Position numbers and translations under genes: made by a program. The notes beneath the pieces are model-generated. The model made no database searches and was not told where the DNA came from. It was given only the letters and a program-made list of their open reading frames with translations. Below, piece after piece: positions 12,191 to 33,091 of a stretch of DNA of 35,394 nucleotides (within the stretch, counting starts at the first letter, position 1; each line of letters begins with the position of its first letter). The stretch is from Patescibacteria group bacterium (lineage in GTDB: Bacteria > Patescibacteriota > Patescibacteriia > Buchananbacterales > GWA2-38-13), in the NCBI GenBank assembly GCA_028712155.1, contig JAQTQO010000015.1, forward strand, positions 1-35,394, read 5' to 3'.

Positions 12191-15100
12191 TCAATCCGCG
12201 TATATCCGACTTTTAATGAATAAATATAGGAGTAGCACGACAAGCAGGAATAAACATATGAGAATAATAATGGAGAACAGGAACGGGCGGCCGGACTGCG
12301 ACAGACCGGCCATGAAGCCCGCCGTCGTCGTCGGAGCGTTCCCCGTCACGTCACCCAGCAACGTCGGCCCGCCGGAACCGGTTGCCGCACCCAGCACTCT
12401 TCCCGGCGGAAGCTGATTATCCGTGGTGGTCCCACCGGCTGGACCGCTAGTCCCATTTCCGCCCTGATTTCCAACACCACCGTCAAGACCGCTCCCCTGC
12501 CCGCCAACCGTCGGCCCGGTTCCCTCCGTAGGATTCCCCTGGTCTTGCCCGCCGCCAAGAGGTCCGCCCGTAAGGCCCCCTTCATGCGCCGTGCCCAGCG
12601 CATTTCCGCCCCTGACCTCAATGGATGCCGAGGCGACTGAAAGATTGCCCGGCAAATGGCCGTTGCTCACGGAAGTCGTGGCATGGTTAAAGTAGATGCC
12701 GGCTGCAACATCATCGGCGACATGCACGTCATATTGCACCGTCATGGTGTTGCCGAACGTTCCGATCGCCCCCAGCTGCCAAAAATGCTCCCGGGTTTTA
12801 GTGTCAACGAACGTAAAACCCGCCGGTAGCGTATCCTGCAGCGTGAGATCGTTTCCGACCGCCCAGCCGGCGTTCGTGATTTTCACGGTGAAACGAACGG
12901 TGCCGCCAGGATAAACAAACTGCTCGTCGGCCGTTTTTACCATGGAAAGTACCGGATTGGAACTTAACGAGGCACCGCCGCCGGAACCTCCGCCGTTACC
13001 ACCCGAACCGCCACCGCCGTTACCACCCGAACCGCTGTTGCCGGATGAGAGTGTATATGAAGAATTGTCCGAGGGCGTTGGGGAAGGCGTCGGCGTGGGC
13101 GATTGCGTTGTATTCGGGTCGGGCGTGGGGGGTCGGCGTCGGCGTTGGCGGGGGCGTCGGGGTCGGAGTTGGGGTCGGCGTCGATTCTCCAGAAGTTCCC
13201 GAATTTTCCAGCAGACAGTTGTTGCAGGTTTGATTGACACCCACACCGTCGCTGCCATCGCATGCTTCAGCACCGTTCTTTATCCCGTCGCCGCAAAACG
13301 GACCGACGACGGTGATGGGGGTGCACGTGGCCGAACAGTAGGTGCAGCTCTGCGCATACGCCGGCACGCACGCTACGCCGTTGTTTTCCGTACCATTATC
13401 GCACTGCTCGCCGGACTGGTTGACCGCATGGTCCCCGCAAAAAACAACGGGCCCTTGGGGCCCGCTCGTTCCTGTTCCATTGTCATCGCCTCCAGGCGGT
13501 CCGCCCGGCGGCCCCAGTACGATCGGATTGTTCGTGCAATCGTTATGGCAGGCATCCGTGTCAACGGTATTGGCATCATCGCACTCTTCCGGACCATTGG
13601 TAATGCCGTCGCCGCAGTATGCGCCGATCACGTTGGTCACCTGGCAGGTATTCGAGCAATATGTGCACGACAATTCATACCCCGGCGTGCAGGCGTTACC
13701 ATTATTGATACCCGCATCGCACGCCTCGCTGGACTGGTTGATCTTGCCGTCACCGCAGCGCGGATCCGGGCAGATATTGATGGCGATATGGCGGTAGATG
13801 GCGTCCAAGTCGCCGCTCGTGGGGCTGAAGTAGTACAACCCGCCGGTGGTCGAGGCGATCTGCTGCAGCATTGCGGAATTGATTTCCGTACCCAGACCGA
13901 TCGTGAAAATCTTGACGCCTTTCGCGGCGGCAGCCGTCGCCTGGTTGATGGCGTAGTTCACATCGCGGGGGTCTTCGCCGTAACCGATGCCGAATGGCTT
14001 GTTCGCGCGGCCGTCCGTCAGGAGAATCTCAATGTGCGCTGCGGTTGTCCGCGCGCGGCTCGAATCCAGCTCGGCGGTCGCGGCCTTGATCGCATCGCCG
14101 ATGTTAGTGGCGCCCAAGGCGGTAATCGCATCAATCTTAGCCGCCAATGTGGTCGTGCTGCTCGACAGCGTCTGGTCCAGCGTCACCTGCGAGGCGTAGG
14201 AAACCAACCCGCCCTTATCCACCGGTGACAGCATGCCGACCAGTCCTTTGGCCGCAGCCTTCGCGTCGGCCATGCGCTTACCGCTGTCGTATGCCATCGA
14301 ACCGGAACGGTCAAACACCAGCATCACGTCCACCGGCTTGCTGCAGCTCTCCACCGTCTGGCAGATCGCGTTGCAGGTGGAACCGGGCTGCCCGTTGCGC
14401 ACGCCAAGGTCGCATTCCTCGCCCTGCTCTACGTTTCCGTTGCCGCAGACCGGCGTGACGACATTGAGCGTGCAGTTATTGCGGCAACTGTCATTGTCAA
14501 CGGTGTTGCCGTCATCGCACTGTTCGTTGAAGCCGTCGCTGTTGGGCGTCTGCCGGATAGCGTCGCCGCAGTAGGTCCGCGTGTTGAGCGTGCAGTCATT
14601 ATGGCACGCGTCGGTGTCGATCGTATTGCCGTCGTCGCACTGCTCGGTCGTCTGGTTGACCGCCCCGTCGCCGCACCGCGGCTGGTTGGGGCACAGCTCG
14701 CCGGCGATCAGCGTGTAGATGTCGTCCAGGTCTGCGCTGGTCGGACTGAAGTAGAATTTCGCTCCGGTGGACGTCGCGATCTGCTGCAGCATTGCGGAAT
14801 TGATTTCCGTGCCCAGACCAATGGTGTAAATCTTGAACCCTTTGGCCGCGGCGGCCGTGGCCTGATTGATGGCGTAGTTCACATCGCGGGGGTCTTCGCC
14901 GTAACCGATGCCGAATGGCTTGTTCGCGCGGCCGTCCGTCAGCAGGATCTCGATATGCGCCGCGGTCGGCCGGGCACGAGTTGACCCCAGCTCGGCGGTC
15001 GCGGCCTTGATCGCATCGCCGATGTTGGTGGCGCCGCTGGCGGTGATCGCGTCGATCTGCGTCTTGATGCCGGTGAAATTATTGTCCAGCGTGTGCACCG

Positions 15101-15923
15101 TGTTCACGGTCGAAGAGAAAGTGACGAGCGCTTCCTTGTCTTTATCCGGCTGCAGGAGGTCGGTGAATCCCTTGGCGGCGGCTTTTGCCTCGGCTAACCG
15201 CGTGCCGCTGTCGTATGCCATCGAACCGGAGCGGTCGAACACCAGCACCACGTCCGTCGGCGTCGTGCAGTGCTGCACGGTCTTGCACTCCGCGTCGCAG
15301 ACCGAACCCGGTTGTCCGTTCTGCGCACCCAGGTCACAGTCTTCGCCCGGATCCACATTGCCGTCGCCGCAGAATCCGGTGATATTGACCGTGAGGTCGC
15401 AACCGTACTCGCCGTTGTGCGTGATAATGCCGCCGTCGTGGTCCTGAGACACGCCGCCGGTTTCGGGGTCGGCAATTGCCGGCGCGTCAAGCAGGACATC
15501 CCATGCGTCCTGCGCGTCCGCTGGCTTGGTCAGCGTCGCAGCGGTCACCACGTCACCCTCACCGGCCTCACCGGTGAGCGTCAGGAACGGACACAGGTCG
15601 CGGTAATAGCCGGGCATATCCGGATCGCCGCCGTTGGGGTACTCCGGATGCGTCGACGGCAAGGGTTTGCGCTTCATCCCGATCGTGTACGGCAGCGTCT
15701 GGCCGCTGAATTCCGGTGCCAGCGAAACCGTGTAATGCTCGGTCAGTCTTTCTCCCGGAAACACCGTACCGAAATCCAGGTGGTTGACGGACACCAATAC
15801 CGGCAGAATGGTCGCCGAAACCCCGATGACTGCCCCTTGCACCGACGCAAACGTCACGCTGCTGACCACTAAGGCCGCAACGATGCGTAAGGCGCGGTTC
15901 AGTTGTTTGCGGGAATACGTCAT
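12191..15923 (-). CDS. Large surface protein with an internal frameshift: divergent TasA-like N-module, DUF4215 Cys-rich repeats, two VWA domains, TP-rich linker, DUF11-like domain, C-terminal TM helix
   Basis: Track ORFs 13020..15923 and 12191..13273 (frames differ by 1) join when one C is removed from the C6 tract (G6 on +, 13127..13132), giving ...TPTPTPDPNTTQSPTPTPSPTPSDNSS.... VWA MIDAS: VFDRSGSMAYDSG twice. Cys repeats: CGDG..N...EQCDDGNT.DTDACHNDC. Confidence 0.82.
13945..14021 (-). repeat. 77-bp exact repeat, copy 1 (within second VWA)
   Basis: TTGATGGCGTAGTTCACATCGCGGGGGTCTTCGCCGTAACCGATGCCGAATGGCTTGTTCGCGCGGCCGTCCGTCAG is identical to 14866..14942. Confidence 0.9.
14866..14942 (-). 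repeat. 77-bp exact repeat, copy 2 (within first VWA)
   Basis: Identical to 13945..14021, offset 921 nt (307 codons). Confidence 0.9.
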
Positions 15924-15930
15924 GGGAATG

Positions 15931-18900
15931 CTAGGTAGTCGGGGTCAACAATCCGTCGGTGCTGGTCGGCGTAACTTCCGGGTTGGTAGTATCCGGCGGA
16001 GGCGGTGGCGTGTCTCCCCCGCTGCCCGTCGTCGGTTGAATTACGACCGTCGGATCAGTCACCTGTTCTTCCGTTTTACTCGACGAAGGACTGTCAATCG
16101 TCGAATCAGCGGGAACTACCGGATCTTCTTCGGGGAATAGCGCGGCCCATTGTTCGTCGGTGAGCGTTGCCGCATCCGGCGGAATATCTTCCGCCTGCGG
16201 CGGCTCTTCCGCGGCCGATGCCGCGATCAGTTCCGGTGCAATGACCGCCTCGTCAGCCGGCGTACCGTCGCACATCACGTCAACATTCTCTTCACCGAGC
16301 GTCGGGCACGGATCCACCCAGCTGCCGGTACCGTCCGGCACGCGCGCGTAGCTATTTCCTTCCGGTTTTGCCGTCGTCCATTCAAACGCATCCAGCAGGT
16401 CGCCACCGACGCTGATTTGCGCGTTGTACAGGCGCACGCGGTCACCGCTATTGGTCATCTCGAATTTCGTGTTGCCGTTGCGGTACACCACCAGCCGGCC
16501 GCCCGCGGCGATCGTCGTAGTTGCCACCGTCGTGCTGGTCGCCGTGATCGGCAGAACGTTGCTGTTCGATTTATCATAGAGCGCCCAGCCTTCCAGCGAA
16601 ATCGGTCTTGTGCTGAGGTTGAACAACTCAACCCACTCTCCGGCCGGCATCGGCGCACCATCAGAACCGGTCGGATTGGCCATGATCTCATTCAGTACGA
16701 CTTCGCTTGTTCCCGTCGGTGAACACCCGTCCCACGGGGCAAGATTGCCGTCGTCGCACTGTTCGCCTGGCTCAACAATGCCATTCCCCATGCCCGGCAG
16801 CACGCACTCGAACGGGTCCGTGTTCTCCTTTTCATAGAACGTATAAATCCGGGCAGCAATGTACTGGACATCCGCGAGCTGCGTTTTGGTTGAACCGGGA
16901 TCCGCAATGACCTGCTCCATGATGGTCAGGGCGTGCTGTATGGTCGTTGTCGCACTGATGCCAATAAGGGTGAATGCGGTATTACCGTCGTAGCCCCCGG
17001 CAACGAGCGCATCCGTGCGCAGGTGGCTTGATACCGCGTTCATTTCATCGGCGAGCGTGAACTTCTTGGCATCACAGCGCGCTTTGTCCACGTCGTTGCT
17101 GGTGCTGGTCGTGCAATTCACCGCCAGCTGCACGCACATCGCGTTGCCGTTCGTGGTCGCAAACACGTCCGACAACCCGTCAGAAAGCGTGTTGACCTGC
17201 GTCGCCCAGATGCTTGTGCCCGTGCCGTTATTGCAGCCGTCGTTGTTTTTGAAGTAACCCTGTGATTTGGCTTCGCACTGGTTTTGCTGCGGCTGGCAGA
17301 GTTTCGTGCAGGTGGACTCCAGAGTTCCGTTGCGCGCACCGTCGTCGCACTGCTCGTTTTGGCCGTAGCTGTTGGGGGTCTGCACCGCACCGTCGCCGCA
17401 GAACGTCGTCGGTTTGCAGTCGTTCTCGCAACCGTCGCCATTGACGAGATTTCCGTCATCGCATACCTCATCTTTTTCGATTCTGCCATTACCGCACTGC
17501 GAGCTGACCGTGCAATCGTTATCGCAGCCGTCACCGTTCACGAGGTTGCCGTCGTCGCACTGCTCATTTTCCAGGTTGACCTTGCCGTCGCCGCAGTACG
17601 GCAGCGGCGGGCAGAGCACCACCTCATCAATGCCGAAGCTGTCGTAGCCGCGCAGTTTCAGCATCCGGATCTTGGTCGTCTGGTCGCCGGAAATTTTCTG
17701 CACGGAATTGCCGTTCTTCGCGGGCACCGGGATCGAGAAGACCTGCGCCGTTCCGGTCGCGTCCGAATACCCGACGACGGCGCTGTTTGAACCGTGGTCC
17801 AGGTCAATGTATTTGACCGAGCTAAACGTCATCGGCTCATTGAACACAAACCGGATGGAACCGCCCGCCGGCTCGTCGTTGGGATCGTCTACGTAGCCGT
17901 CGGCCGGCGTGGTGTCCACGGCGTTATCGGGAATGATGAGCAAATTGTGGAGCGGCGTGTTGTTCGAGGGTTCCTTGCCGTCGCCGTTCTCGCTGTTGCC
18001 CGGCCCGCCGAACTGCAAATTGGGCGTACCGAGGTCAACATCCACGATCTTGTCGCCGTTAATGCCGCCGGACGGATGCGCCGAGTCAAAGATAATCGCT
18101 TTCTGCGGATGCGCCGCATTGTAGTTATGCGCGGACACGAGGATCCCCCATAGCGAATACTCGGTATCGATGAACTGCCCCTTGAGCATCGGGTTGCCGC
18201 TGGCATCATTTTCAAAATCCAAGGTAATGGCGTTTTGGCACACGCCCGTCTGGTAGTTTCCAAAGTTAACGCCGGTCTTAGTTTCGCCCTGCGCCAGGGT
18301 CACCGTGGTCGACGTCGGCGTCGAACCCAGCCACCCGCTGCGGGTTTCTTCCGTCACGGTGTAGCTGCCGGCATTCAGGTTGGTGAACGCATAGTACCCG
18401 GTCGCGTCGGTGGTCGCCAGGCCGCTGGAGTCGCCCGTCAGCGCCATCAGCCAGCCCGCGATCGGCGGTTCGGCCGGCTGCTGCCAGGTACCGTCGTGAT
18501 TGATATCGTGCCACTTGTAGCCGGACAGACCGCCCTTGAGAATCTCGTTCCGTTTATTCCCGAAATTCACCACCTCGGTGCATTCGTCGGTGGTGAGTGC
18601 GACGCTGACCGGCGTCGTCGCCGTCCAGCCCGTCTGCGTCACTTCGGTCACGATGTAATCGCCGAACTTCAACTGGGTCGGGAAAATATAATGGCCGTTC
18701 TCGTCGGTCATCTGATTGCCGAAATCGCGGGCCGCCAGCCAGTTCTGGAAGGCCGTCAAGTCGCCGGACGCTAACGCCAGCGACCCGTCGCCGTTGAAAT
18801 CGCAAATGGTTCCCAGCGGGCACGTCGCGCCGTCCACAATGACATCCTCAAGGATGCCATAATCGTTGCTGTCATTCTTGACGTTGCCGTTGTAATCGTA

Positions 18901-19185
18901 CTCCGGCGCGTACGGACCGCCTTTCAATTCGATGATCCAGTCCTTCAGTCCCGCCTCGCCGCCGTCGCGCACCCCGTTGCCGTTCGCATCGTTGAATTTC
19001 ACACCCTCAATGGTCACGTACTGGCAGGGGTCAATGCGCGCGATGACGTTGATGACGTGCGCCTCATAGGCGGTATAGATCGGCAGCTGCCCCAGCACGA
19101 CGGACACAGCCACCACCACCGCGCTCATGCGTTTGAGTGCGTTCAGCGTGCGCTTCTTCAAAATTGTCTTCCGTCGTTTGGTCAT
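15931..19185 (-). CDS. Large secreted multidomain protein: SipW-substrate-like N-terminus, SdrD-B/CNA-B-like repeats, dockerin-like Ca loop, LDFE domain, DUF4215 repeats, GYFKNN domain, lamin-tail domain
   Basis: Start MTKRRKTILKK at 19185 preferred over the track start at 19287. YTAYEAHVINVIARID; GVKFNDANGNGVRDGGEAGLKDWIIEL and GYKWHDINHDGTWQQPAEPPIAGW (SdrD-B-like); DFNGDGSLALASGDLTAFQNWLA; NEIMANPTGSDGAPMPAGEWVELFNLSTRPISLEGWALYD (LTD). Confidence 0.85.
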   Translation of the reverse strand: MTKRRKTILKKRTLNALKRMSAVVVAVSVVLGQLPIYTAYEAHVINVIARIDPCQYVTIEGVKFNDANGNGVRDGGEAGLKDWIIELKGGPYAPEYDYNGNVKNDSNDYGILEDVIVDGATCPLGTICDFNGDGSLALASGDLTAFQNWLAARDFGNQMTDENGHYIFPTQLKFGDYIVTEVTQTGWTATTPVSVALTTDECTEVVNFGNKRNEILKGGLSGYKWHDINHDGTWQQPAEPPIAGWLMALTGDSSGLATTDATGYYAFTNLNAGSYTVTEETRSGWLGSTPTSTTVTLAQGETKTGVNFGNYQTGVCQNAITLDFENDASGNPMLKGQFIDTEYSLWGILVSAHNYNAAHPQKAIIFDSAHPSGGINGDKIVDVDLGTPNLQFGGPGNSENGDGKEPSNNTPLHNLLIIPDNAVDTTPADGYVDDPNDEPAGGSIRFVFNEPMTFSSVKYIDLDHGSNSAVVGYSDATGTAQVFSIPVPAKNGNSVQKISGDQTTKIRMLKLRGYDSFGIDEVVLCPPLPYCGDGKVNLENEQCDDGNLVNGDGCDNDCTVSSQCGNGRIEKDEVCDDGNLVNGDGCENDCKPTTFCGDGAVQTPNSYGQNEQCDDGARNGTLESTCTKLCQPQQNQCEAKSQGYFKNNDGCNNGTGTSIWATQVNTLSDGLSDVFATTNGNAMCVQLAVNCTTSTSNDVDKARCDAKKFTLADEMNAVSSHLRTDALVAGGYDGNTAFTLIGISATTTIQHALTIMEQVIADPGSTKTQLADVQYIAARIYTFYEKENTDPFECVLPGMGNGIVEPGEQCDDGNLAPWDGCSPTGTSEVVLNEIMANPTGSDGAPMPAGEWVELFNLSTRPISLEGWALYDKSNSNVLPITATSTTVATTTIAAGGRLVVYRNGNTKFEMTNSGDRVRLYNAQISVGGDLLDAFEWTTAKPEGNSYARVPDGTGSWVDPCPTLGEENVDVMCDGTPADEAVIAPELIAASAAEEPPQAEDIPPDAATLTDEQWAALFPEEDPVVPADSTIDSPSSSKTEEQVTDPTVVIQPTTGSGGDTPPPPPDTTNPEVTPTSTDGLLTPTT

Positions 19186-19186
19186 T

Positions 19187-19738
19187 TCAATGGGATAATT
19201 TTTTTGCCACTCCGATGCTGATGAACCCGAGTCTCGGGATCCGCACCGGTTTGCCGCTGCCCCAGGTGAGCGCCCGGCCCACCACATCGGTAATCTTGAT
19301 CGGCTTATCGGACACGTTATTGGCGTCGCCCTGGGTGGTCAGCATGCCTTTCGCCGGATCGATCTCGATGATGCGGTGGATGGTATAACCGCGCTCATTC
19401 TCATACACCACGATATCGCCCACCTTCAGTTCGTCCGGCTTGACCCCCTGGACGAAGATGAGGTCCCCCACCTTGAGCACCGGCCACATGGAACCGGAGG
19501 TGATCGCCGCCATCGGGGTGTTGGTGTGCAGCGCCTTGCTCAACGCTATCGGCATGCCCCAGATGAGCACCGCCACGATCACCACGTAGATGACCAGCCC
19601 GCGCAGCACCCGGAGCGGCCGGTACCACCACTTCCGCTTCGAAATCTTTGGCACCACCGTTCCCCGCTCGATCGCGGCCGTTTTCGACGACGGGCCCGCC
19701 GCCGGCGGCGTCTCTTTTGTTTTTTGTTCGTCTGACAT
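19187..19738 (-). CDS. Signal peptidase I, ER/archaeal (S26B) SipW-like type with Ser/His dyad
   Basis: ITSGSMWPVLKVGDLIFVQGV (catalytic Ser), GDIVVYENERGYTIHRIIEID (His in place of Lys), LTTQGDANNVSD. Stop overlaps tightly with the downstream start (TGA-A-ATG). Confidence 0.9.
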   Translation of the reverse strand: MSDEQKTKETPPAAGPSSKTAAIERGTVVPKISKRKWWYRPLRVLRGLVIYVVIVAVLIWGMPIALSKALHTNTPMAAITSGSMWPVLKVGDLIFVQGVKPDELKVGDIVVYENERGYTIHRIIEIDPAKGMLTTQGDANNVSDKPIKITDVVGRALTWGSGKPVRIPRLGFISIGVAKKLSH

Positions 19739-19820: not shown

Positions 19821-20375
19821 TTAGAACAACTTCGGCATCTTGAAGATGTACACCGTCCCCCCGTACTTCTGGATCGGCGCCGACACGGGAACTTGTACGC
19901 TGAACTCCACTTTCACTTCCTCACCCGGCTTCAGGGTAAACGACGTGCCCTTGTCGATCTTCATCATCTCGGCGATAGGGCCGGTTTTTACGATCCAGAT
20001 CTGCTTATTCATGCCGCCGGTATTCTTCAGGGTCACGTAGCGGTTGGCACCCGTGTCGCGGGACAGATCGCCGAAATCGAGCTTGGCTACGGGGTTGACG
20101 GCCACTTTGTCCTTACCCTCGATCACGTTCACCGTTGCCGCATACCGTTCCGCCGCCATCACCTGCACGCCGATAAACCACGCCACGGCCAGTACGATCA
20201 CCAGAATCACCGTATGCTTGGTCTTCCACTTTTTGCGTCCCGAGCCTTGCTTTGCCCCGTCGGATGACGGGGTCGAAGGACCGCCGTCCGTCCCTTGATT
20301 CTTAATACTCGATACTTGCTTCTCCGTCTGCGCGCCCGCTCCCGCTGTTGCGCCCGCTGGTTTCTGGTCTTCCAT
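19821..20375 (-). CDS. Membrane-anchored beta-sandwich protein, possible fibre anchor/accessory subunit
   Basis: 184 aa: cytoplasmic linker, TM (HTVILVIVLAVAWFIGVQVMA), then KLDFGDLSRDTGANRYVTLKNTGGMNKQIWI...FTLKPGEEVKVEFSVQVPVSAPIQKYGGTVYIF. Confidence 0.8.
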   Translation of the reverse strand: MEDQKPAGATAGAGAQTEKQVSSIKNQGTDGGPSTPSSDGAKQGSGRKKWKTKHTVILVIVLAVAWFIGVQVMAAERYAATVNVIEGKDKVAVNPVAKLDFGDLSRDTGANRYVTLKNTGGMNKQIWIVKTGPIAEMMKIDKGTSFTLKPGEEVKVEFSVQVPVSAPIQKYGGTVYIFKMPKLF

Positions 20376-20486: not shown

Positions 20487-21209
20487 CTAGACGGGTTGGA
20501 GTTGGAGTTTGCTAATTTCGGTCGTTTCAATCCACAGGTCGCAACCAAAATTCTTGTGCTCGTTTTCAGCTGGTTGCACGTAGTTGGCCGGAACAACACC
20601 CTCCGGACCGTAGGTCTTCACGAAGGTATTCCAGTCCTGGGCGCACATACCGGCAAAGCACGGAACCTTGAGGTCAATGGTCCACGTATCTTCGCTGTCA
20701 TTGGCCTTTACCAGCACACCCGAGGCTTCCCATGCAGATGTGTCAGCCATTGTCCATCCGGTAATCGGGCCATGGAACGGCTTGACGCTTACATCGCCTA
20801 CACCGCCGTCGGAAGTCTTGGACAGGTAGGGGCAAAGTAGCAAGGCCTGGCGATAACCTTCCGGGCAAAGGAACTCACCTTGCGCATTCTCGCCGCTGAC
20901 CGGAACGTACTGCGGCTTTTCAGTCGTCGGCTCAATGATCTCACACTTCGGCTTCTGGCGGATGACGTACTCTACGACATCCACGCGATTCTGCGCGGCA
21001 AACGATTCGCTCAAGCCGATGGACAAGCTCTTATCAAGCTTTTCCTGCGGGAACACGGTGCCGTAATCAATGGCTTCCGGCCTCACGGACAGCGCGTTCT
21101 CGATTTTGGCTGTCACGTTGATGATGTGCGCTTCGAATGCCGCGAACATTGGAACCGTGGCGACAGCCAGGGCAATGGCGGAGGCGCCGATCGCAAGTTT
21201 CTTCAACAT
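20487..21209 (-). CDS. TasA/camelysin-like secreted subunit, minimal (module only)
   Basis: MLKKLAIGASAIALAVATVPMFAAFEAHIINVTAKIENALSVRPEAIDYGTVFPQEKLDKSLSIGLSESF, then the conserved Cys positions KPKC, FLCPEG, LLCPYLSK, VPCFAGMCAQDW, FGCDLWIE. Confidence 0.82.
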   Translation of the reverse strand: MLKKLAIGASAIALAVATVPMFAAFEAHIINVTAKIENALSVRPEAIDYGTVFPQEKLDKSLSIGLSESFAAQNRVDVVEYVIRQKPKCEIIEPTTEKPQYVPVSGENAQGEFLCPEGYRQALLLCPYLSKTSDGGVGDVSVKPFHGPITGWTMADTSAWEASGVLVKANDSEDTWTIDLKVPCFAGMCAQDWNTFVKTYGPEGVVPANYVQPAENEHKNFGCDLWIETTEISKLQLQPV

Positions 21210-21441
21210 AGTGTAATTCGAACAAACTTATTGATTTAGGTAATCGTTATGTCACCCTTGTGCTGACTTACCTCGTATCGGAAGGCTGCTTCCTCAACAG
21301 GTTTTTGCCTTTTCCGTCTCCCTCCGACGATAAGGCAAGTCACGCAAGGCATGCCGCATTCCCTCCGGCGTCTGCCGGAGAGTTCGACCTTTGGTGCGGA
21401 TGTAAGGTGCCAAACGTTTGGGAAAACTTTTCTTCCCATTC

Positions 21442-21465
21442 CCCGGCCCTTCGCGAAAGGCCGGG
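21442..21465 (-). repeat. Intergenic hairpin CCCGGCC...GGCCGGG
   Basis: Minus strand CCCGGCCTTTCGCGAAGGGCCGGG, downstream of the 21487..22692 gene. Confidence 0.6.
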
Positions 21466-21486
21466 TCAATGGACAGACAAGCCGGA

Positions 21487-22692
21487 TTACGGGTTCAGGA
21501 CGGTGCCTTCCGGCGTACCGCTGGTCAGGATGCGGGTGAATGCGACTTGGCCGAAGATGCCGAAGTCGGGCCACTCAACGCCGGTGGATTTCAGTTCAAC
21601 CGTCATCACACCCGAGACACTGACCGGAATGGCCACCGATGACCACTTCCAGACCTCGCTGACGATACTGCCGTCGTTGGCGTAGGACGCCACCAGGTTC
21701 CCGTTGATGTAGACCTCAAACGAATCGTCGGTTGCAATGCCGTCGAGGTTGCGCAGGTTCAGGTAACGTACACCCGCCGGGCCGGAGCTGATGGTGAAGG
21801 TTGCCGACCGCGTACCGTCGCCGTTTGCCTGTGACGCATACACGACGCGGCAGTTGCCGTCCTCACACGCACCGCCCCAGTTGCCGTTGTGGGTCGCCGG
21901 TTCGATCGGACCCCACGAGAGCAGGCTATGCCCGGATTCGCTGGTCGGATCGCCGATGTTGATCTCCTCGAACGGTTCCGAAGTCCGCGACACGCCGCTG
22001 ACTTCGATCCACAGGTCGCAGCCGAACAGCACGCTCTTGTTTGCCGCCGGCTGGACGTACGCGGCCGGGTCCGCCGTTTCGTTATTGGACTTCACGAACG
22101 TGGCCCAATCCTGGGCGCACTCGCCGGCAAAGCACGGCACGCGCAGATCGATGTTCCAGGTATCAGAGGTATCCTGTTCGGATTTCGCCAAACGGCCCTT
22201 CACTTCAGTCGTGAGCGTATCTCGCAATGTCCAATTCGTTACCGGGCCGTGGAACGCGTTGATGCCGCCGTCGTTATCCGGCACGCCATCGGCGGTAGTC
22301 TCGTGTTTGGAAAGGTACGGGCAGAGCACCGGCAGCTGGTGGTAGCCTTGCGGACAAACGAAAACGCCTTCCGCGCCATCGGTGACGGTTGCATATTCCG
22401 GCCCCTCAACACCCGGATCAATTTGGCATTTCGGCTTCTGACGGATCAGATAATCGACGTCATCCACGCGGCCTTCCTGCAAGAACGATCCCGAGAGCGA
22501 CACGTTCACTTGTTTGTCGATCGCTTCCTGCGGGAACACGGTGCCGAAATTGATCGGCGTGGTATCAACGGTCAGGGCGTTCTCGATCCGCGCGGTGACG
22601 TTGATGATGTGCGCTTCGAACGCCGCGAACATCGGGACGGATGCGACCGCCAACGCGATGGCCGAAGCGCCGAGCGCTAGTTTCTTCAACAT
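21487..22692 (-). CDS. TasA-like secreted subunit with C-terminal beta-sandwich/carbohydrate-binding-like domain
   Basis: Same N-module (MLKKLALGASAIALAVASVPMFAAFEAHIINVTARIENALTVDTTPINFGTVFPQE) plus ~160 aa SATFTISSGPAGVRYLNLRNLDGIATDDSFEVYINGNLVASY... Confidence 0.82.
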   Translation of the reverse strand: MLKKLALGASAIALAVASVPMFAAFEAHIINVTARIENALTVDTTPINFGTVFPQEAIDKQVNVSLSGSFLQEGRVDDVDYLIRQKPKCQIDPGVEGPEYATVTDGAEGVFVCPQGYHQLPVLCPYLSKHETTADGVPDNDGGINAFHGPVTNWTLRDTLTTEVKGRLAKSEQDTSDTWNIDLRVPCFAGECAQDWATFVKSNNETADPAAYVQPAANKSVLFGCDLWIEVSGVSRTSEPFEEINIGDPTSESGHSLLSWGPIEPATHNGNWGGACEDGNCRVVYASQANGDGTRSATFTISSGPAGVRYLNLRNLDGIATDDSFEVYINGNLVASYANDGSIVSEVWKWSSVAIPVSVSGVMTVELKSTGVEWPDFGIFGQVAFTRILTSGTPEGTVLNP

Positions 22693-22740
22693 ATCATTTT
22701 CTCATTGGTTATCATCGAGAAATTCTCGATTCCTCCCCAG

Positions 22741-22812
22741 TTGTCATTCCCGCGAAAGCGGGAATCCACACCTGGCTGTTGCTGGATTCCGGCTGGGACG
22801 CCGGAATGACAA
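22741..22812. repeat. REP/MITE-like palindromic element
   Basis: TTGTCATTCC-CGCGAAAGCGGGAAT...GGATTCCGGCTGGGACGCC-GGAATGACAA; 10-bp perfect terminal inverted repeats and two internal hairpins. Confidence 0.8.
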
Positions 22813-22903
22813 CAAGGACATTCGCAATCGTTCTCTGCATCCCTGCCTGACGGGCAGGTTCGACCTTTCATGCAGAAATTAAAATTCAGCTAAACTATGA
22901 CCA

Positions 22904-25027
22904 TTAATTGATCGTAAAGGTAATGTCGCCATCCATGACGGCCGTCCAGGTGCCAAACGAGCTCTGGTGGAACGATTCTTCGTTGAGCACCATCCCCAGC
23001 TGATACGTTCCGGCCGTGAATGTCGTGCCGCCGCAGCTGGAGCGCTCGATCTGTCCGGTGACGTTAGCGGCCGCGCACAACGGCAAGGTCGGATGTACCG
23101 GATCAAGCCCGGTGGCCAGTTGGGAGTTGTTCGACGTACCACAAGAACCGCCGCTGCACCACAGCACGTGGTAGCTGGAATCGGTGGTGACGGCCTTGGT
23201 CACACTGCCGCTCGCGTCCGCCGTCACAAATCCCCACACCAGGTAACCGGAAATGCAGTGGGTGCCGCCGTGGTAGACGGAATTCGCCAGGTAATCGGCG
23301 TCGCTGACGTTCGCGTTGGTCGTGTTGTCCCACCAGCGGCCCATGTACCCGAGCTTCTCGTTCAGCACATCGTCGCCGCCCGCATCCTGGCAGGTCGGCT
23401 TGCCGTTAAACTTCAGCTGGTAGGTCATCAAGGGCTTCAATCCGGTTGCTGTGAACGTGCCGGAAAGTTGTCCGCTCGCGGGCGTCTGGTAGGTGAACTG
23501 CGCCGAGGCCGTGCTGTAGTCGTGGACGTAGCCGTATTGTGATGCCGCCCCGATATTCAGCAGGGAAATCGTCGTTGGCGCCGCTACCGTTCTCTGATAC
23601 GTTACCAGATCGGCGTTCGTCGCATCGAAAAGGAATGTGGCGGGATTCCAGGTGGTGACGCTATGCGATGCAACGGTGTAGCTCGACGAAGGCACCAGCC
23701 ACACTTTTGCCTTGCCGGAAGCGAAATTCGCATCAGCCGAATCCGGCAGGCTCATCCCGATATCGGAATTGCCGGACAACGCGAGTGCGCCGCTGCCGTT
23801 AGTCGTCCCCTGCCCCAGCAACGCCCCCGGGTGATTGCCCGGCCAGCCGTCGCCGTAGTAGATCAAACTGTAACTTGTTCCCGCCGTCAAACCCTGTGCG
23901 GTAAACGAGTAATCAAACGTCGGACCGGATGGCTTGTAGGTAAGGCTGCCGGATGTGCCGTCAACAATCACGCTCCAATCCCCGCCCGTATCCTTATTTT
24001 CTAATGTCGCCGTAACCGGGCAAGCATTATTACCGGCGCAATCGCTGTCGCTGCAGTCAACGGCGCCGTCGCAATCATTGTCCAGGCCGTCGGTGCAGAC
24101 TTCCGTAGTCGGCGCACCCGCCGACACCGAGCAAACCGGCTCGCCAGACGGGTTTGACGCGTCGCACACGGTCACGCCGCTGGCGGCGCACTGGCCTTGG
24201 CCGGTGCCGCACGCCTCGCCCAGCGTCCAGCCTTCATCCGTTTGCCCGTCGCAGTCATTGTCCCGGCCGTCGCACACTTCTTCGGACGGCACGCAGGTCG
24301 CCGGCGGCGCTTCAAATCCCTTCACTTCGATCCACAGGTCGCAGCCGAACAATTCGTGCTCGCGTGCGGCCGGCTGAATGTAGAGGCTCGGCTCGATTTG
24401 CGGATTGCCGGATTCGCGGCGAACGAAATCATCCCAATCCTGCGCGCACGCGCCGGCAAAGCACGGTACCCGCAGATCAATGGTCCAGAGGTCGGAGGGA
24501 TCCTGGGTGGTCTTGTCCAAACGTCCCTTCACTTCCGTGGCCAGGGTTGCCGCCATGGTCCAGGGTTCCGGCATGCCGTGGAATGCGTTGAAACCGGCGT
24601 CGTCATTTTCATCCGCCGGGTCGGCGTCGTGTTTGGACAGGTACGGGCACAGCACCGGCAGCTGCGTAAAACCTTCCGGGCAAATGAATGCTCCGGCCTG
24701 ATTTTCCGTTGCCTGGGCGAATTCGCTATACGTCACGGGCTTGGATTCCGCCACCGCTTTGCCGCACTTGGGCTTCTGGCGAATGACGTAATTGGCGTAC
24801 TCCATCCGCTCGGCGCCCTGGAATGAATCGCTCAGTGCCACGGTCACCTGGCGGTCGAGCCGTTCCTGCGGAAATACCGTGCCGAACTCCATCGGCCGGG
24901 TATCCACCGTTAACGCGTTCTCGATCTTTGCCGTCACGTTGATGATGTGCGCCTCGAACGCGGCGAACATCGGGACCGTCGCTGCGGCCACGGCGACTGC
25001 GGATACACCGACCAAAAATTTTTTCAT
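22904..25027 (-). CDS. TasA-like secreted subunit with MopE-type metal-binding motifs and long beta-rich C-terminus
   Basis: Start MKKFLVGVSAVAVAAATVPMFAAFEAHIINVTAKIENAL at 25027. EEVCDGRDNDCDGQTDEGW and TEVCTDGLDNDCDGAVDCSDSDC match the DxDNDCDGxxD motif. Confidence 0.83.
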   Translation of the reverse strand: MKKFLVGVSAVAVAAATVPMFAAFEAHIINVTAKIENALTVDTRPMEFGTVFPQERLDRQVTVALSDSFQGAERMEYANYVIRQKPKCGKAVAESKPVTYSEFAQATENQAGAFICPEGFTQLPVLCPYLSKHDADPADENDDAGFNAFHGMPEPWTMAATLATEVKGRLDKTTQDPSDLWTIDLRVPCFAGACAQDWDDFVRRESGNPQIEPSLYIQPAAREHELFGCDLWIEVKGFEAPPATCVPSEEVCDGRDNDCDGQTDEGWTLGEACGTGQGQCAASGVTVCDASNPSGEPVCSVSAGAPTTEVCTDGLDNDCDGAVDCSDSDCAGNNACPVTATLENKDTGGDWSVIVDGTSGSLTYKPSGPTFDYSFTAQGLTAGTSYSLIYYGDGWPGNHPGALLGQGTTNGSGALALSGNSDIGMSLPDSADANFASGKAKVWLVPSSSYTVASHSVTTWNPATFLFDATNADLVTYQRTVAAPTTISLLNIGAASQYGYVHDYSTASAQFTYQTPASGQLSGTFTATGLKPLMTYQLKFNGKPTCQDAGGDDVLNEKLGYMGRWWDNTTNANVSDADYLANSVYHGGTHCISGYLVWGFVTADASGSVTKAVTTDSSYHVLWCSGGSCGTSNNSQLATGLDPVHPTLPLCAAANVTGQIERSSCGGTTFTAGTYQLGMVLNEESFHQSSFGTWTAVMDGDITFTIN

Positions 25028-25059
25028 ATCGCTTTGGGGGTTATCTTCCCTCCCCATTT

Positions 25060-25086
25060 CCCGGCCCTGCGTTGCGCAAGGCCGGG
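25060..25086 (-). repeat. Intergenic hairpin CCCGGCC...GGGCCGGG
   Basis: Minus strand CCCGGCCTTGCGCAACGCAGGGCCGGG between two TasA-like paralogues; flanks resemble the 21442 copy. Confidence 0.6.
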
Positions 25087-25110
25087 TCAACGGACAGGCA
25101 ATACAACAAT

Positions 25111-26409
25111 TTAGTTATTCGGGCACTCCGTCAATTGCTTCAGGATGTTATCGAGCGACGCGTAATCACTGGCCTGGTAGTAGTGGTCATCGCCGCTGGC
25201 AATGGTCTTCAAGTACGTCGGATTCACCTGGCTGCCAACGCCGACCACAAAGATTTGGATGCCGGCGGCTTTGGCCGCAGTGGCCGACGCCAACGCCACG
25301 GCGCGCGCGTTCGCGTCATCCGGCGGCTGGTTGGGCTGGCCATCGGTGATAATGACCATGTAATCCGGAATGGTCGGCCGGCCATTGGCGGCGATATCGC
25401 CGGCGGCAAGGTCGATGCCTTCCTTCAGGTTGGTCGTGCCGGAAGAAACCAGCGCATTGATCGCGGTGTGGACATCCGTTTCGTTACCCGTCAGCACCTG
25501 ATCAAGCGTTCCGGTATCGGCGAAACTCGACTCCCCGATATGGGTGCCGTCCGCGGACGGCGCGAGGGTCGTCACGAACGCATTGGCCGCGGTCTTGAGC
25601 AGCGTGATGTCGCTGCCGATGCTGCCGGAACGGTCGAGGACGAGTTCAAGGTCAATTTTACCCTTGCAGCCGAGTCCCGGGAGCGATACGCCGAACACTT
25701 CCACCCACAGGTCGCAGCCGAACAATTTGTGCTCGTTGTCCTTGGGCTGCACGTAGGCGTTCGGGTCAATGTTCGGGTTGCCGGATTCGGTGCGCACGAA
25801 CTGCGCCCAGTCCTGGGCGCACTCGCCCGCAAAGCACGGAACACGGAGGTCGATCTTCCACTGGTCGTCAACGTCCTGCTGGGACTTGGCCAGATGCCCG
25901 GTAACTTCCGTACCGAGCGTCGAGCTCAGGGTCCAGTCGGTTGTGCTGCCGTGAAACGCCGTGATACCCACGCTGTCGTTCTCCGACGCGGTTCCGTCCG
26001 GGGTCACCTCATGCTTGGAGAGGTATGGACAGAGTACCGGCAGTTGCACGTAACCCTCGGGGCAGATGAATTCGCCCTCGACGTTTTCGCCCGACGGCTT
26101 GAAGTCGCTGTATTCCACCGGATTCGTATCCGCGACAACCTTGCCGCACTTCGGCTTCTGCCGGATGGCATAGTCAATGTCGTCAACGCGCGTCGTGTCG
26201 CGGAACGACTGTGAAAGCGCCACCGTCACGAACTTGTCCAGCTTTTCCTGCGGGAACACGGTCCCGTACTGGATCGGCGTGGTATCCACGGTCAGGGCGT
26301 TCTCGATCTTCGCCGTCACGTTGATGATGTGCGCCTCGAACGCGGCGAACATTGGCACCGTGGCGACGGCCAACGCGACCGCGGACAGCCCGACGAGAAT
26401 TTTTCGCAT
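25111..26409 (-). CDS. TasA-like secreted subunit with C-terminal VWA domain
   Basis: MRKILVGLSAVALAVATVPMFAAFEAHIINVTAKIENALTVDTTPIQYGTVFPQEKLDK; VWA: IDLELVLDRSGSIGSDITLLKTAANAF, SSGTTNLKEGIDLA, YMVIITDGQPNQPP. Confidence 0.88.
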   Translation of the reverse strand: MRKILVGLSAVALAVATVPMFAAFEAHIINVTAKIENALTVDTTPIQYGTVFPQEKLDKFVTVALSQSFRDTTRVDDIDYAIRQKPKCGKVVADTNPVEYSDFKPSGENVEGEFICPEGYVQLPVLCPYLSKHEVTPDGTASENDSVGITAFHGSTTDWTLSSTLGTEVTGHLAKSQQDVDDQWKIDLRVPCFAGECAQDWAQFVRTESGNPNIDPNAYVQPKDNEHKLFGCDLWVEVFGVSLPGLGCKGKIDLELVLDRSGSIGSDITLLKTAANAFVTTLAPSADGTHIGESSFADTGTLDQVLTGNETDVHTAINALVSSGTTNLKEGIDLAAGDIAANGRPTIPDYMVIITDGQPNQPPDDANARAVALASATAAKAAGIQIFVVGVGSQVNPTYLKTIASGDDHYYQASDYASLDNILKQLTECPNN

Positions 26410-26473: not shown

Positions 26474-27412
26474 CTATGCTTTCTTTTTCCTGAACGCGAA
26501 TACCGCAATGGCAACGATGCCGACCACGACCACGGCGATCACAATCCCGGTGTTCCCGACTAACAGCCCGGGCGTGCCGGTTGCCGTCGCTAATGCGCTT
26601 AGATCTTTTGCATTCTTATCTATGCTGAAGGTAAAATCCTGCTGCGCGAGTACCTGCTCTCCTTCCAGCGCGGTCACCTCGGCGATGTATTTGCCTTCGA
26701 CCAAACCGTTGGTCGGAACCGTGTAGGTCGCTTCGCCCGATTCCAGCGGTTTTACCGCCGGCTGACCGGCCGGGTAACCGAGCGTCACGTCCGACAACGC
26801 TTGACTGTCAATTTCCGCCTTGCGGATTTTTACCTGCAGTTTCGGCGTGATCTGGACATTGCCCTGGTTTTGGAACTGCACGCGAATGGACAGTGGCGCG
26901 TCCGGTTTGATGTCGTAGGCCTGCGGGATGACGGACACTTCCGCCTTGAACTCTTCTTTATCCGTAACGGAAATGCTCACAGGACGGGTGACCTGCTGCG
27001 AGACGACCGCGCCGCTTTCGCCGGTGCTGCTGCCCTGCGGTCCCTGCTCCACCACCAGCTCGCCCTCGTACGTGCCGTTCTTTGCGTCACCCCCAACCGT
27101 GATCACGGCAACCACTTCCCGGTTGCTGGTCGCTGTCATTTCGACTTCGGTAACCGCAGTCTTCATGTCTGAAGGCAAATAGTATTTCACCCACTCGGCG
27201 ATCGCACCCGTCGCTTTCAGTTGCAGTTTCAGCGCCAGTTTTTCTGTATTGTAGATGGTGAGCGTTTCATTTATGACCTGCCCGCGCCGCGCGTTTTTGA
27301 CCACGATCGGTTCGGTCATCATGCCAATGGCCAACACGAATGTTGGCGCAAACAATGCGAGAGTGCCCGCTACTCCCAAGAATAGTTTTGCCCGCTGTGA
27401 CAGTCGTTTCAT
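26474..27412 (-). CDS. Secreted/membrane-anchored beta-sandwich protein (COG1470/CARDB-like) with C-terminal TM
   Basis: Signal peptide; MTEPIVVKNARRGQVINETLTIYNTEKLALKLQLKATG; C-terminal NTGIVIAVVVVGIVAIAVFAFRKKKA. Confidence 0.75.
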   Translation of the reverse strand: MKRLSQRAKLFLGVAGTLALFAPTFVLAIGMMTEPIVVKNARRGQVINETLTIYNTEKLALKLQLKATGAIAEWVKYYLPSDMKTAVTEVEMTATSNREVVAVITVGGDAKNGTYEGELVVEQGPQGSSTGESGAVVSQQVTRPVSISVTDKEEFKAEVSVIPQAYDIKPDAPLSIRVQFQNQGNVQITPKLQVKIRKAEIDSQALSDVTLGYPAGQPAVKPLESGEATYTVPTNGLVEGKYIAEVTALEGEQVLAQQDFTFSIDKNAKDLSALATATGTPGLLVGNTGIVIAVVVVGIVAIAVFAFRKKKA

Positions 27413-27511: not shown

Positions 27512-28633
27512 TTAATCCTCACACACGAGCGCTGACTGCGCCACTGCGCCGAGCACCATGGTGCCGGTGTAGGACTGGCCAGTCTCGTACGCGGTCGGGA
27601 ACTTGTAGACCTCAATGGAGAAATCCATTTCGTTGGTCTCGGAAAGTTCCACGGTGTTGTTCAAGGTCTTGGTGACGTTCGGGTAGTAGACTGCGAACAA
27701 CGCATTGCTGCCGACGCGCGCATCGAACTTGACGTTCCAGGCGCCATCGGTCGAGCCCAAGCCCATGTCATCCTGCTTGACGGTCATCTTCAGCCGCGTG
27801 TTGCCGATATTGCGGACAGTCGGCATGCCATCGCCCAAGCTGAAGGTAAGGTTGCCGTTCTTGATCTGGTGGGTGTTGAGGAGGACTTTGCCGTAGTTCA
27901 CGGAAGTAAAGTCCGTCTCAAACGCAGTGATCGGCAGGTATTGCAAGACGTTGGACAGAATCGCGCTGCTGTTGCCGGCGTGGTCCTGCGCGAACACGTC
28001 AACGCGGTACGATCCGGCCGGATCCTCGTAGTAGAGGGTGCGGCTGCCGCAGAAGACGGCGGCGGTTTCCTTCATGAGTTCGCCATCCTCGGCGCAAACC
28101 TCATCGTAATTGTACAATCCCTCGCCAAACGGACCCCAGACTGGCAGGTTGTTGTTGTTGGTCCGAATGGAGTTGCACAGCAGGTTGTAGCCGTCGGTCT
28201 TGGACATCTTGGCGAGCTTGATCTCGTCGCCAACGCGTGTACCACAGCCCGGAGTTCCGAGTTCGGTCTCGGCGTTCACCCGGTGAATGCCAATTCCCTC
28301 TGGGTAGTAGACATCCGCGTAAACGGCATTGATATCGGCAAGGCCGTTCTCATCGGTTGCCACCGCACAGTAGGACACCGCAACGGTTCCCTGGTAGCTG
28401 ACCGGGGGCAGAATCTGCGCACCAGCCTTGGTGCTGTCATCCAGGCCCAGTGTGCCGGACTTCATCTCCCACTTCACTTTGATGACCGGCGGCTCTCCAC
28501 CTGGCGCGCTGCGGACAAAACCGGTGTTGACCAATCCGGAATTGGTGTTCACGGACACCTCCTGCGCCAACGCCGGCAAAACCGACATGGACAACAGGGA
28601 AACAACGGACGCAACGTGAATCAATTTCTTCAT
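27512..28633 (-). CDS. Secreted protein of unknown function, beta-rich
   Basis: 373 aa: MKKLIHVASVVSLLSMSVLPALAQEVSVNTNSG; AFETDFTSVNYGKVLLNTHQIKNGNLTFSLGDGMPTVRNIGNTRLKMTVKQDDMG echoes the xxYGxV beta-sandwich motif. Confidence 0.75.
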   Translation of the reverse strand: MKKLIHVASVVSLLSMSVLPALAQEVSVNTNSGLVNTGFVRSAPGGEPPVIKVKWEMKSGTLGLDDSTKAGAQILPPVSYQGTVAVSYCAVATDENGLADINAVYADVYYPEGIGIHRVNAETELGTPGCGTRVGDEIKLAKMSKTDGYNLLCNSIRTNNNNLPVWGPFGEGLYNYDEVCAEDGELMKETAAVFCGSRTLYYEDPAGSYRVDVFAQDHAGNSSAILSNVLQYLPITAFETDFTSVNYGKVLLNTHQIKNGNLTFSLGDGMPTVRNIGNTRLKMTVKQDDMGLGSTDGAWNVKFDARVGSNALFAVYYPNVTKTLNNTVELSETNEMDFSIEVYKFPTAYETGQSYTGTMVLGAVAQSALVCED

Positions 28634-31624: not shown

Positions 31625-32695
31625 TCACCGTACGGCGGGCAAAAGTGCTTCCGCCGTGTACCGATTCGATGCATTCCATAACAGCCATCCGTCTGAACCC
31701 GAGTCATACGCCGCCTGAATTTGCTTGCGGACTTTTACTGAATCGTAGTCGGCACCGAGATCAAAATCTTGTATCCATGGCCTGACTTTTGTCATGCTTC
31801 CTGACAAAAATTTCTTTGATTTGTCTAGACTATTGTAGACAATTTCGTATGGATAATCAGCAGGATTTGCAAAACCTTCAAAATTATCCGGGTAATGCGA
31901 CGGATAAACCATCGGGCATATGTAGTCAAATCTACCCACCGCGTCACTGAATCTTTGTCCAATACCCAAGCCGTCATCCCTCCACAGCGTCATGCCAAAC
32001 AGATCAACCGATGTTCGAACTGGCAAATACGACATCTTTCGACTTAGGTACACAAAAAAATCTTTCATCGCTTCATTTTTTGTCTTCCCTACTGCCTGGA
32101 ATGGAAAATCGATCTCACTGATGTTTCCATCCGACGGAAACCGTATATAGTCAAAATTTATCTCATCAAAGCCAATTTTTGATGCAGCTACCGCAATGGA
32201 AATATTGTAATCCCACACCTCTTTCTTTGAACTATCTACCCAGGAAAGCCCCTTAAAATCCCTCCAAACCTTACCGGACTTTGTTTTAAGCGCATAACCA
32301 TCAACTTTTTCAGCAAGATACGGGTCCTGAAATACCGCTACCCTCGCGATCGTATATATCCCCTTCTTCTTTAGGTCAGAAACAATACCTTTAATATCCT
32401 TTATTAATGGCTTATATGAGCCAATTTTTATTGCATCTGCATTTTCAGAATGAATAAATATCCTTCCGGTGTAGTCCTTTACATCGATTACCACGGCATT
32501 GAGCTCTGTTTTATCCACCAAATCAACCAATCCTTTTAGCAGCCCCCTTTCGCTCGCGCTGTATGCCGTTATATAGATCGCTTTTGTTTGGATATCTTTT
32601 GGCTTTGTTGTGAGATTTGGCTCAAATCCTAAATAGCTGAAAATTGATGAATATATCATCAATAACTGAAAAATTATCACAAATATCGGGCCCAT
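31625..32695 (-). CDS. DUF4015-type putative glycoside hydrolase (TIM barrel)
   Basis: KAIYITAYSASERGLLKGLVDLVDKTELNAVVIDVKDYTGRIF, WVDSSKKEVWDYNISIAVAASKIGFDEINFDYIRFPSDG, MVYPSHYP; N-terminal hydrophobic segment. Confidence 0.87.
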   Translation of the reverse strand: MGPIFVIIFQLLMIYSSIFSYLGFEPNLTTKPKDIQTKAIYITAYSASERGLLKGLVDLVDKTELNAVVIDVKDYTGRIFIHSENADAIKIGSYKPLIKDIKGIVSDLKKKGIYTIARVAVFQDPYLAEKVDGYALKTKSGKVWRDFKGLSWVDSSKKEVWDYNISIAVAASKIGFDEINFDYIRFPSDGNISEIDFPFQAVGKTKNEAMKDFFVYLSRKMSYLPVRTSVDLFGMTLWRDDGLGIGQRFSDAVGRFDYICPMVYPSHYPDNFEGFANPADYPYEIVYNSLDKSKKFLSGSMTKVRPWIQDFDLGADYDSVKVRKQIQAAYDSGSDGWLLWNASNRYTAEALLPAVR

Positions 32696-32912: not shown

Positions 32913-33091
32913 CATTGAATTTTTTTCTGATTCTACTGTTGTAATATTTTCATTTTTCAGGTAATTAGGATGTGCACTTTACATCACCTGGAATAACCAG
33001 TAAGGTATTGGGTTGCGTGTCTTCTATATATAGGCATTCACAATCTGACATTCCATACTTTAAATTCTTTACTCAATCATCAGTATCCACT

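Follow-up and report, generated by a model that had tools for sequence, protein, structure and literature searches.

In the tapA-sipW-tasA system of Bacillus subtilis, residues 28-38 of TasA form a donor strand that fills the next subunit (PMC9674648), and TapA, whose own Ig fold is complete, donates its N-terminus to TasA (PMC10151520). Similarly, the sipW-calY1-bc_1280-calY2 operon of Bacillus cereus combines SipW with several TasA-like paralogues, among them the camelysins CalY1 and CalY2 (PMC10151520). In other lineages, archaeal bundling pili and thread filaments are TasA-like or donor-strand fibres (cited in PMC9674648, PMC9715654). For Patescibacteria, the known filament class is the type IV pilus, which serves host attachment (PMC12206443).

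Here, we describe an operon that invites comparison with these systems. The window, by which we mean the whole 35,394-nucleotide stretch analysed, is one contig of a 1.44-Mb, 96% complete patescibacterial genome, that of a tiny, probably symbiotic bacterium.

Four tandem paralogues and their family

Four genes lie in tandem on the minus strand at 20487-26409 and share a module of ~215 aa that follows the signal peptide (Table 1). A first-pass annotation had read them as close paralogues with six invariant cysteines, and both the open reading frames and the alignment confirm this. Module identity across the four is 54-64% (54-61% to the 240-aa copy), and 103 positions are invariant, including the six cysteines, which in the numbering of the 240-aa protein are C89, C115, C126, C184, C189, and C223 (C1-C6 below). 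As paralogue E-values in a search within the genome run from 1e-75 to 1e-88, the relatedness of the modules is far beyond chance. The motifs quoted in that annotation are present, with small departures: FGCDLW continues as IET in the 240-aa module and as VEV in the 432-aa module, and YVQPA reads YIQPA or YVQPK in two of the four. For the third paralogue the reading frame spans 22904-25090 (728 aa), the ATG at 25027 (707 aa) being the better start.

Between two of the paralogue genes, 22740-22813 holds an imperfect inverted repeat (GTTGTCATTCCCGCG / CGCCGGAATGACAAC) that is REP- or MITE-like.

When the module was searched against Pfam, NCBIfam, and the sequences of the PDB, nothing matched, and no Pfam or NCBIfam entry has its cysteine pattern. 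The idea of a new six-cysteine variant therefore stands insofar as no curated family has the pattern; what does not stand is its local character, for this is the standard form across a patescibacterial family. The pattern recurs in ~40 modules from ~20 loci in scattered Patescibacteria (16 regions and four named loci were read, with three more modules in L099). By profile search, the module was found in 10/381 genomes sampled from the class, 7/380 from the phylum, and 5/49 from another class. A scan of 84,980 species for a sequence pattern returned Patescibacteria only (Parcubacteria GWA2_38_13, Taylor-, Portnoy-, Giovannoni-, and Doudnabacteria, and other MAGs); it rests on two short conserved peptides, and distant members elsewhere could escape it. 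All relatives found are patescibacterial, and their spread is patchy. One paralogue, at 14964-16696 of L066, is split over two frames, which suggests that the copy carries a frameshift or is decaying, or that the sequence contains an error.

The open-access literature yielded no account of TasA, SipW, camelysin, or lamin-tail proteins in Patescibacteria, CPR, or Parcubacteria, and the operon, which recurs across the Candidate Phyla Radiation, appears to be undescribed. Type IV pilins were ruled out as an identity for the modules, since all of them lack a prepilin motif and have their hydrophobic stretch ahead of the putative cleavage site.

Predicted fold and cysteine pairing

With the family alignment as input, AlphaFold2 models the 240-aa module as a beta-sandwich (pLDDT 92.6, pTM 0.86). 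This monomer model leaves mature residues 1-16 unstructured, with a pLDDT of 49 over residues 1-10. Among 350,542 PDB chains searched with Foldseek, the best match is the cryo-EM TasA fibre 8aur (probability 0.95, E 0.008, TM only 0.40), in an alignment that spans the module. AggA, a donor-strand type of fimbrial subunit, ranks third. We take the resemblance of the model to the TasA fibre as suggestive: it is indicative, not proof.

The term "TasA-like," as first applied to these modules, holds tentatively for the fold, and holds for the dedicated SipW-type peptidase in the operon and for the anatomy of signal peptide and mature N-terminus, but not at the level of sequence. The modules match neither PF12389 (E up to 1), which is absent from the genome, nor NF046066 (E up to 10), to which TasA scores 513 bits. 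TIGR04088, the SipW signal model, gives TasA 38 bits and had no match in the full-length 240-aa protein and its relatives at E up to 10. In addition, apart from weakly aligning the signal peptide region, hhalign of the modules against TasA returned nothing significant. These defining sequence tests all came back negative, and membership of the TasA family is therefore not demonstrated; it is probable that the module system works like TasA.

Three disulfides had been proposed from the six cysteines, and the way in which these are lost and replaced across the family lends support to that proposal. In a 36-row module alignment, C3 and C6 are both missing from three rows and never singly, and the same is true of C4 and C5. 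C1 has become Pro or Val with C2 kept in 11 rows, and every one of these has gained a cysteine a few residues before C3 (CYPxLC), an addition found in 0/24 rows that have C1; one of the 36 rows lacks C1, C2, and the extra cysteine alike. Since cysteines are lost only in pairs, or in the case of C1 with either a replacement cysteine or the loss of C2, these alignments support three disulfides: one joining C3 to C6, one joining C4 to C5, and one joining C2 to C1 or to the cysteine that replaces it. The diverged two-cysteine proteins of the same operons retain C3 and C6. Please note that independent changes on the tree number two to three per trait, too few for significance in a paired-change test. 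The genome encodes two DsbA-like thioredoxins; VKOR was sought in this 96% complete genome and was not found.

Operon partners and cargo domains

Where contigs are long enough, the modules cluster with a 184-aa protein, a signal peptidase, an LTD protein, and usually a two-cysteine protein. The genes often touch or overlap, and the arrangement recurs across many patescibacterial families; in L069 the same genes stand in a different order.

Table 1. Positions of the annotated features in the window
Feature	Position	Strand	Basis or remark
967-aa protein: diverged two-Cys module (C3 and C6 only), two VWA domains, Cys-rich repeats	13020-15923	-	
LTD / SdrD_B / DUF4215 protein without sandwich module	15931-19185	-	Candidate initiator or cap
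SipW/ER-type signal peptidase (S83, H121, D138)	19187-19738	-	TIGR02228, 1e-28, over cut-off
184-aa protein: N-terminal TM helix and one PapD/MSP/ASH-like beta-sandwich	19821-20375	-	Model, fold search
Module-only paralogue, 240 aa: signal peptide, N-terminal strand, six-Cys beta-sandwich	20487-21209	-	ORF, alignment, AlphaFold model
Putative donor strand AFEAHIINVTAKIENA, 240-aa protein, mature residues 1-16	21093-21140	-	Conservation rank, low pLDDT
Second paralogue, 401 aa: six-Cys module and ~160-aa C-terminal domain without Pfam match	21487-22692	-	
Putative donor strand, 401-aa protein	22576-22623	-	Alignment
Third paralogue, 707 aa: six-Cys module, MopE / acidic double-disulfide repeats, long C-terminal part	22904-25027	-	
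Putative donor strand, 707-aa protein	24914-24961	-	Alignment
Fourth paralogue, 432 aa: six-Cys module and C-terminal VWA domain	25111-26409	-	PF00092, 1e-22
Putative donor strand, 432-aa protein	26296-26343	-	Alignment
312-aa secreted protein, C-terminal TM	26474-27412	-	Orthologues beside modules in two other genomes
373-aa secreted protein without known family	27512-28633	-	Orthologues beside modules in two other genomes

Signal peptidases with a Ser-His pair are of the ER/SipW type. The Ser, His, and Asp motifs of the in-operon enzyme are invariant in 11 orthologues, and its similarity to SipW itself is weak; elsewhere, the genome encodes another signal peptidase, of the Ser-Lys kind (GASMEPNF, FFIKRI). 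The 184-aa protein has orthologues in 16/16 loci whose contig covers the place. Judging from its TM helix and modelled fold, it could plausibly be a membrane anchor or base, or a tethered chaperone. The module profile did not match this protein, and we do not claim homology of the two.

The LTD protein carries a signal peptide of the module type and an N-terminal strand, AYEAHVINVIARI, running from 19071 down to ~19024. It may be TapA-like, having a putative strand to give and no groove to receive one. The 967-aa protein begins with a fifth, diverged module, and its two VWA domains are nearly identical.

Some further observations concern these genes and their surroundings. At 2-2107 of L081, a signal peptidase and an LTD-type protein share one reading frame, a possible gene fusion. 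At 32972-35392 of our window, a large plus-strand reading frame, open at the contig end and closing on a long Pro-Thr repeat, has two copies of a domain (LDFERDG...GQFLKDAYA) that it has in common with the LTD protein. Close by, a 356-aa gene at 31625-32695 lies in a stretch of 36-46% GC against ~57-63% around it and was probably imported.

Cargo differs from module to module. In other genomes the C-terminal part may be VWA, SpaA-like repeats, or a beta-helix-like part. Whole domains are also inserted in loops: DUF642 after LSxSF in L066 and L077 (by profile), L076 (by similarity), and L099 (by spacing), and DUF1349 after KQK in L022. Such tolerance of the loops fits a subunit with outward-facing loops.

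Compared with the B. subtilis TasA system, then, the likenesses are a suggestive best fold match, an N-terminus beginning with AF after the signal peptide, an ER-type signal peptidase in the operon, and a module-less partner that bears the N-terminal segment, as TapA does. In contrast, the modules have six cysteines in three inferred disulfides whereas mature TasA has zero, and here we find several cargo-bearing paralogues, a membrane-anchored PapD-like partner, and an LTD-domain protein in TapA's place. The camelysin operon is similar in pairing several paralogues with a SipW, but its sequence family, PF12389, is not matched by the modules; to our knowledge, camelysins have no known cargo domains or disulfide pattern. 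The archaeal bundling pili and thread filaments differ in that they gave no PDB sequence match and are absent from the best 50 fold matches listed.

A proposed fibre and its alternatives

We think it rather probable that the four modules are subunits of a secreted, cell-attached fibre that works like TasA. The in-operon Ser-His-Asp peptidase would cleave after ...PMFA and expose the N-terminus AFEAHIINVTAKIENA. Outside the cell, disulfides C1-C2, C3-C6, and C4-C5 (89-115, 126-223, and 184-189 in the 240-aa protein) would staple the sandwich, and the N-terminal strand of one subunit would complete the sandwich of the next to give a linear fibre. The LTD protein, with a donor segment and no acceptor groove, may start or cap the fibre as TapA does, and the membrane-anchored PapD-like 184-aa protein may hold its base or chaperone the subunits. 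Paralogues with VWA, MopE, SpaA-like, DUF642, DUF1349, or beta-helix domains, C-terminal or inserted in loops, would be displayed on the fibre, probably so that it can adhere to surfaces or to the cells of a host. Polymerisation, strand exchange, and the attachment role are all things that we infer.

Much turns on the mature N-terminus, AFEAHxINVTAxIENA, which has the lowest entropy of all 201 windows of 16 residues in the family. Because a SipW-type signal can reach into the mature N-terminus, as shown by TIGR04088, which covers TasA residues 11-44, this segment may be conserved for the sake of cleavage and not of strand exchange. On that reading the proteins would be monomeric or wall-associated secreted adhesins, the module a scaffold for secretion and attachment, and the N-terminus an extended recognition motif for the SipW-type peptidase. 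The same segment opens LTD-type proteins in 15/15 loci read, with unrelated domains directly after it, and the cargo of the paralogues is strongly different, both of which speak for such adhesins. However, the stretch covered by TIGR04088 overlaps the TasA donor strand (PMC9674648), so that donor strand and peptidase recognition are compatible readings; the two-cysteine proteins keep a (V/L)xVxA-type strand without the AFEAH part; conservation extends to mature residues 16-19; and the best fold match is to the polymeric form of TasA. We therefore judge the adhesin reading unlikely, yet worth keeping in mind.

Pili of the chaperone-usher-like or sortase type, rather than TasA-like self-assembly, are very unlikely in our estimation. 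The fimbrial subunits AggA, DraE, and AfaE do occur among the Foldseek matches, and the 184-aa protein has a PapD/MSP-like fold, but the module-only subunit is without a C-terminal sortase signal, neither usher nor sortase was recognised among the scanned window proteins, and a SipW-type signal peptidase is present instead. Least likely of all is that the six cysteines bind metal or carry out redox chemistry in place of forming structural disulfides. Their high conservation, and the MopE-type putative metal-binding repeats behind the module of one paralogue, could be cited in favour; yet the cysteines go in fixed pairs, the remaining pairs persist when one is lost, and a lost partner is replaced nearby, as disulfides would behave. 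Moreover, the module alignment has no conserved CxxC or His-rich metal site, and the protein is exported.

Returning to the TasA-like fibre, we put forward a broader and more tentative proposal, namely that these operons may encode an undescribed class of patescibacterial filament: TasA-like fibres that are joined by donor strands, stapled by disulfides, and used for attachment beside type IV pili, and that have a SipW-type peptidase of their own, an LTD initiator, a membrane-anchored PapD-like base, and exchangeable cargo subunits. If this is true, donor-strand exchange with a SipW-type peptidase extends to Patescibacteria, and the disulfides set these fibres apart as a TasA design stabilised by covalent bonds. 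The fibres would then help cells that are reduced and often epibiotic to attach to a host or a surface. The operon is a concrete candidate for a second attachment organelle in these bacteria, one with interchangeable adhesive or binding domains.
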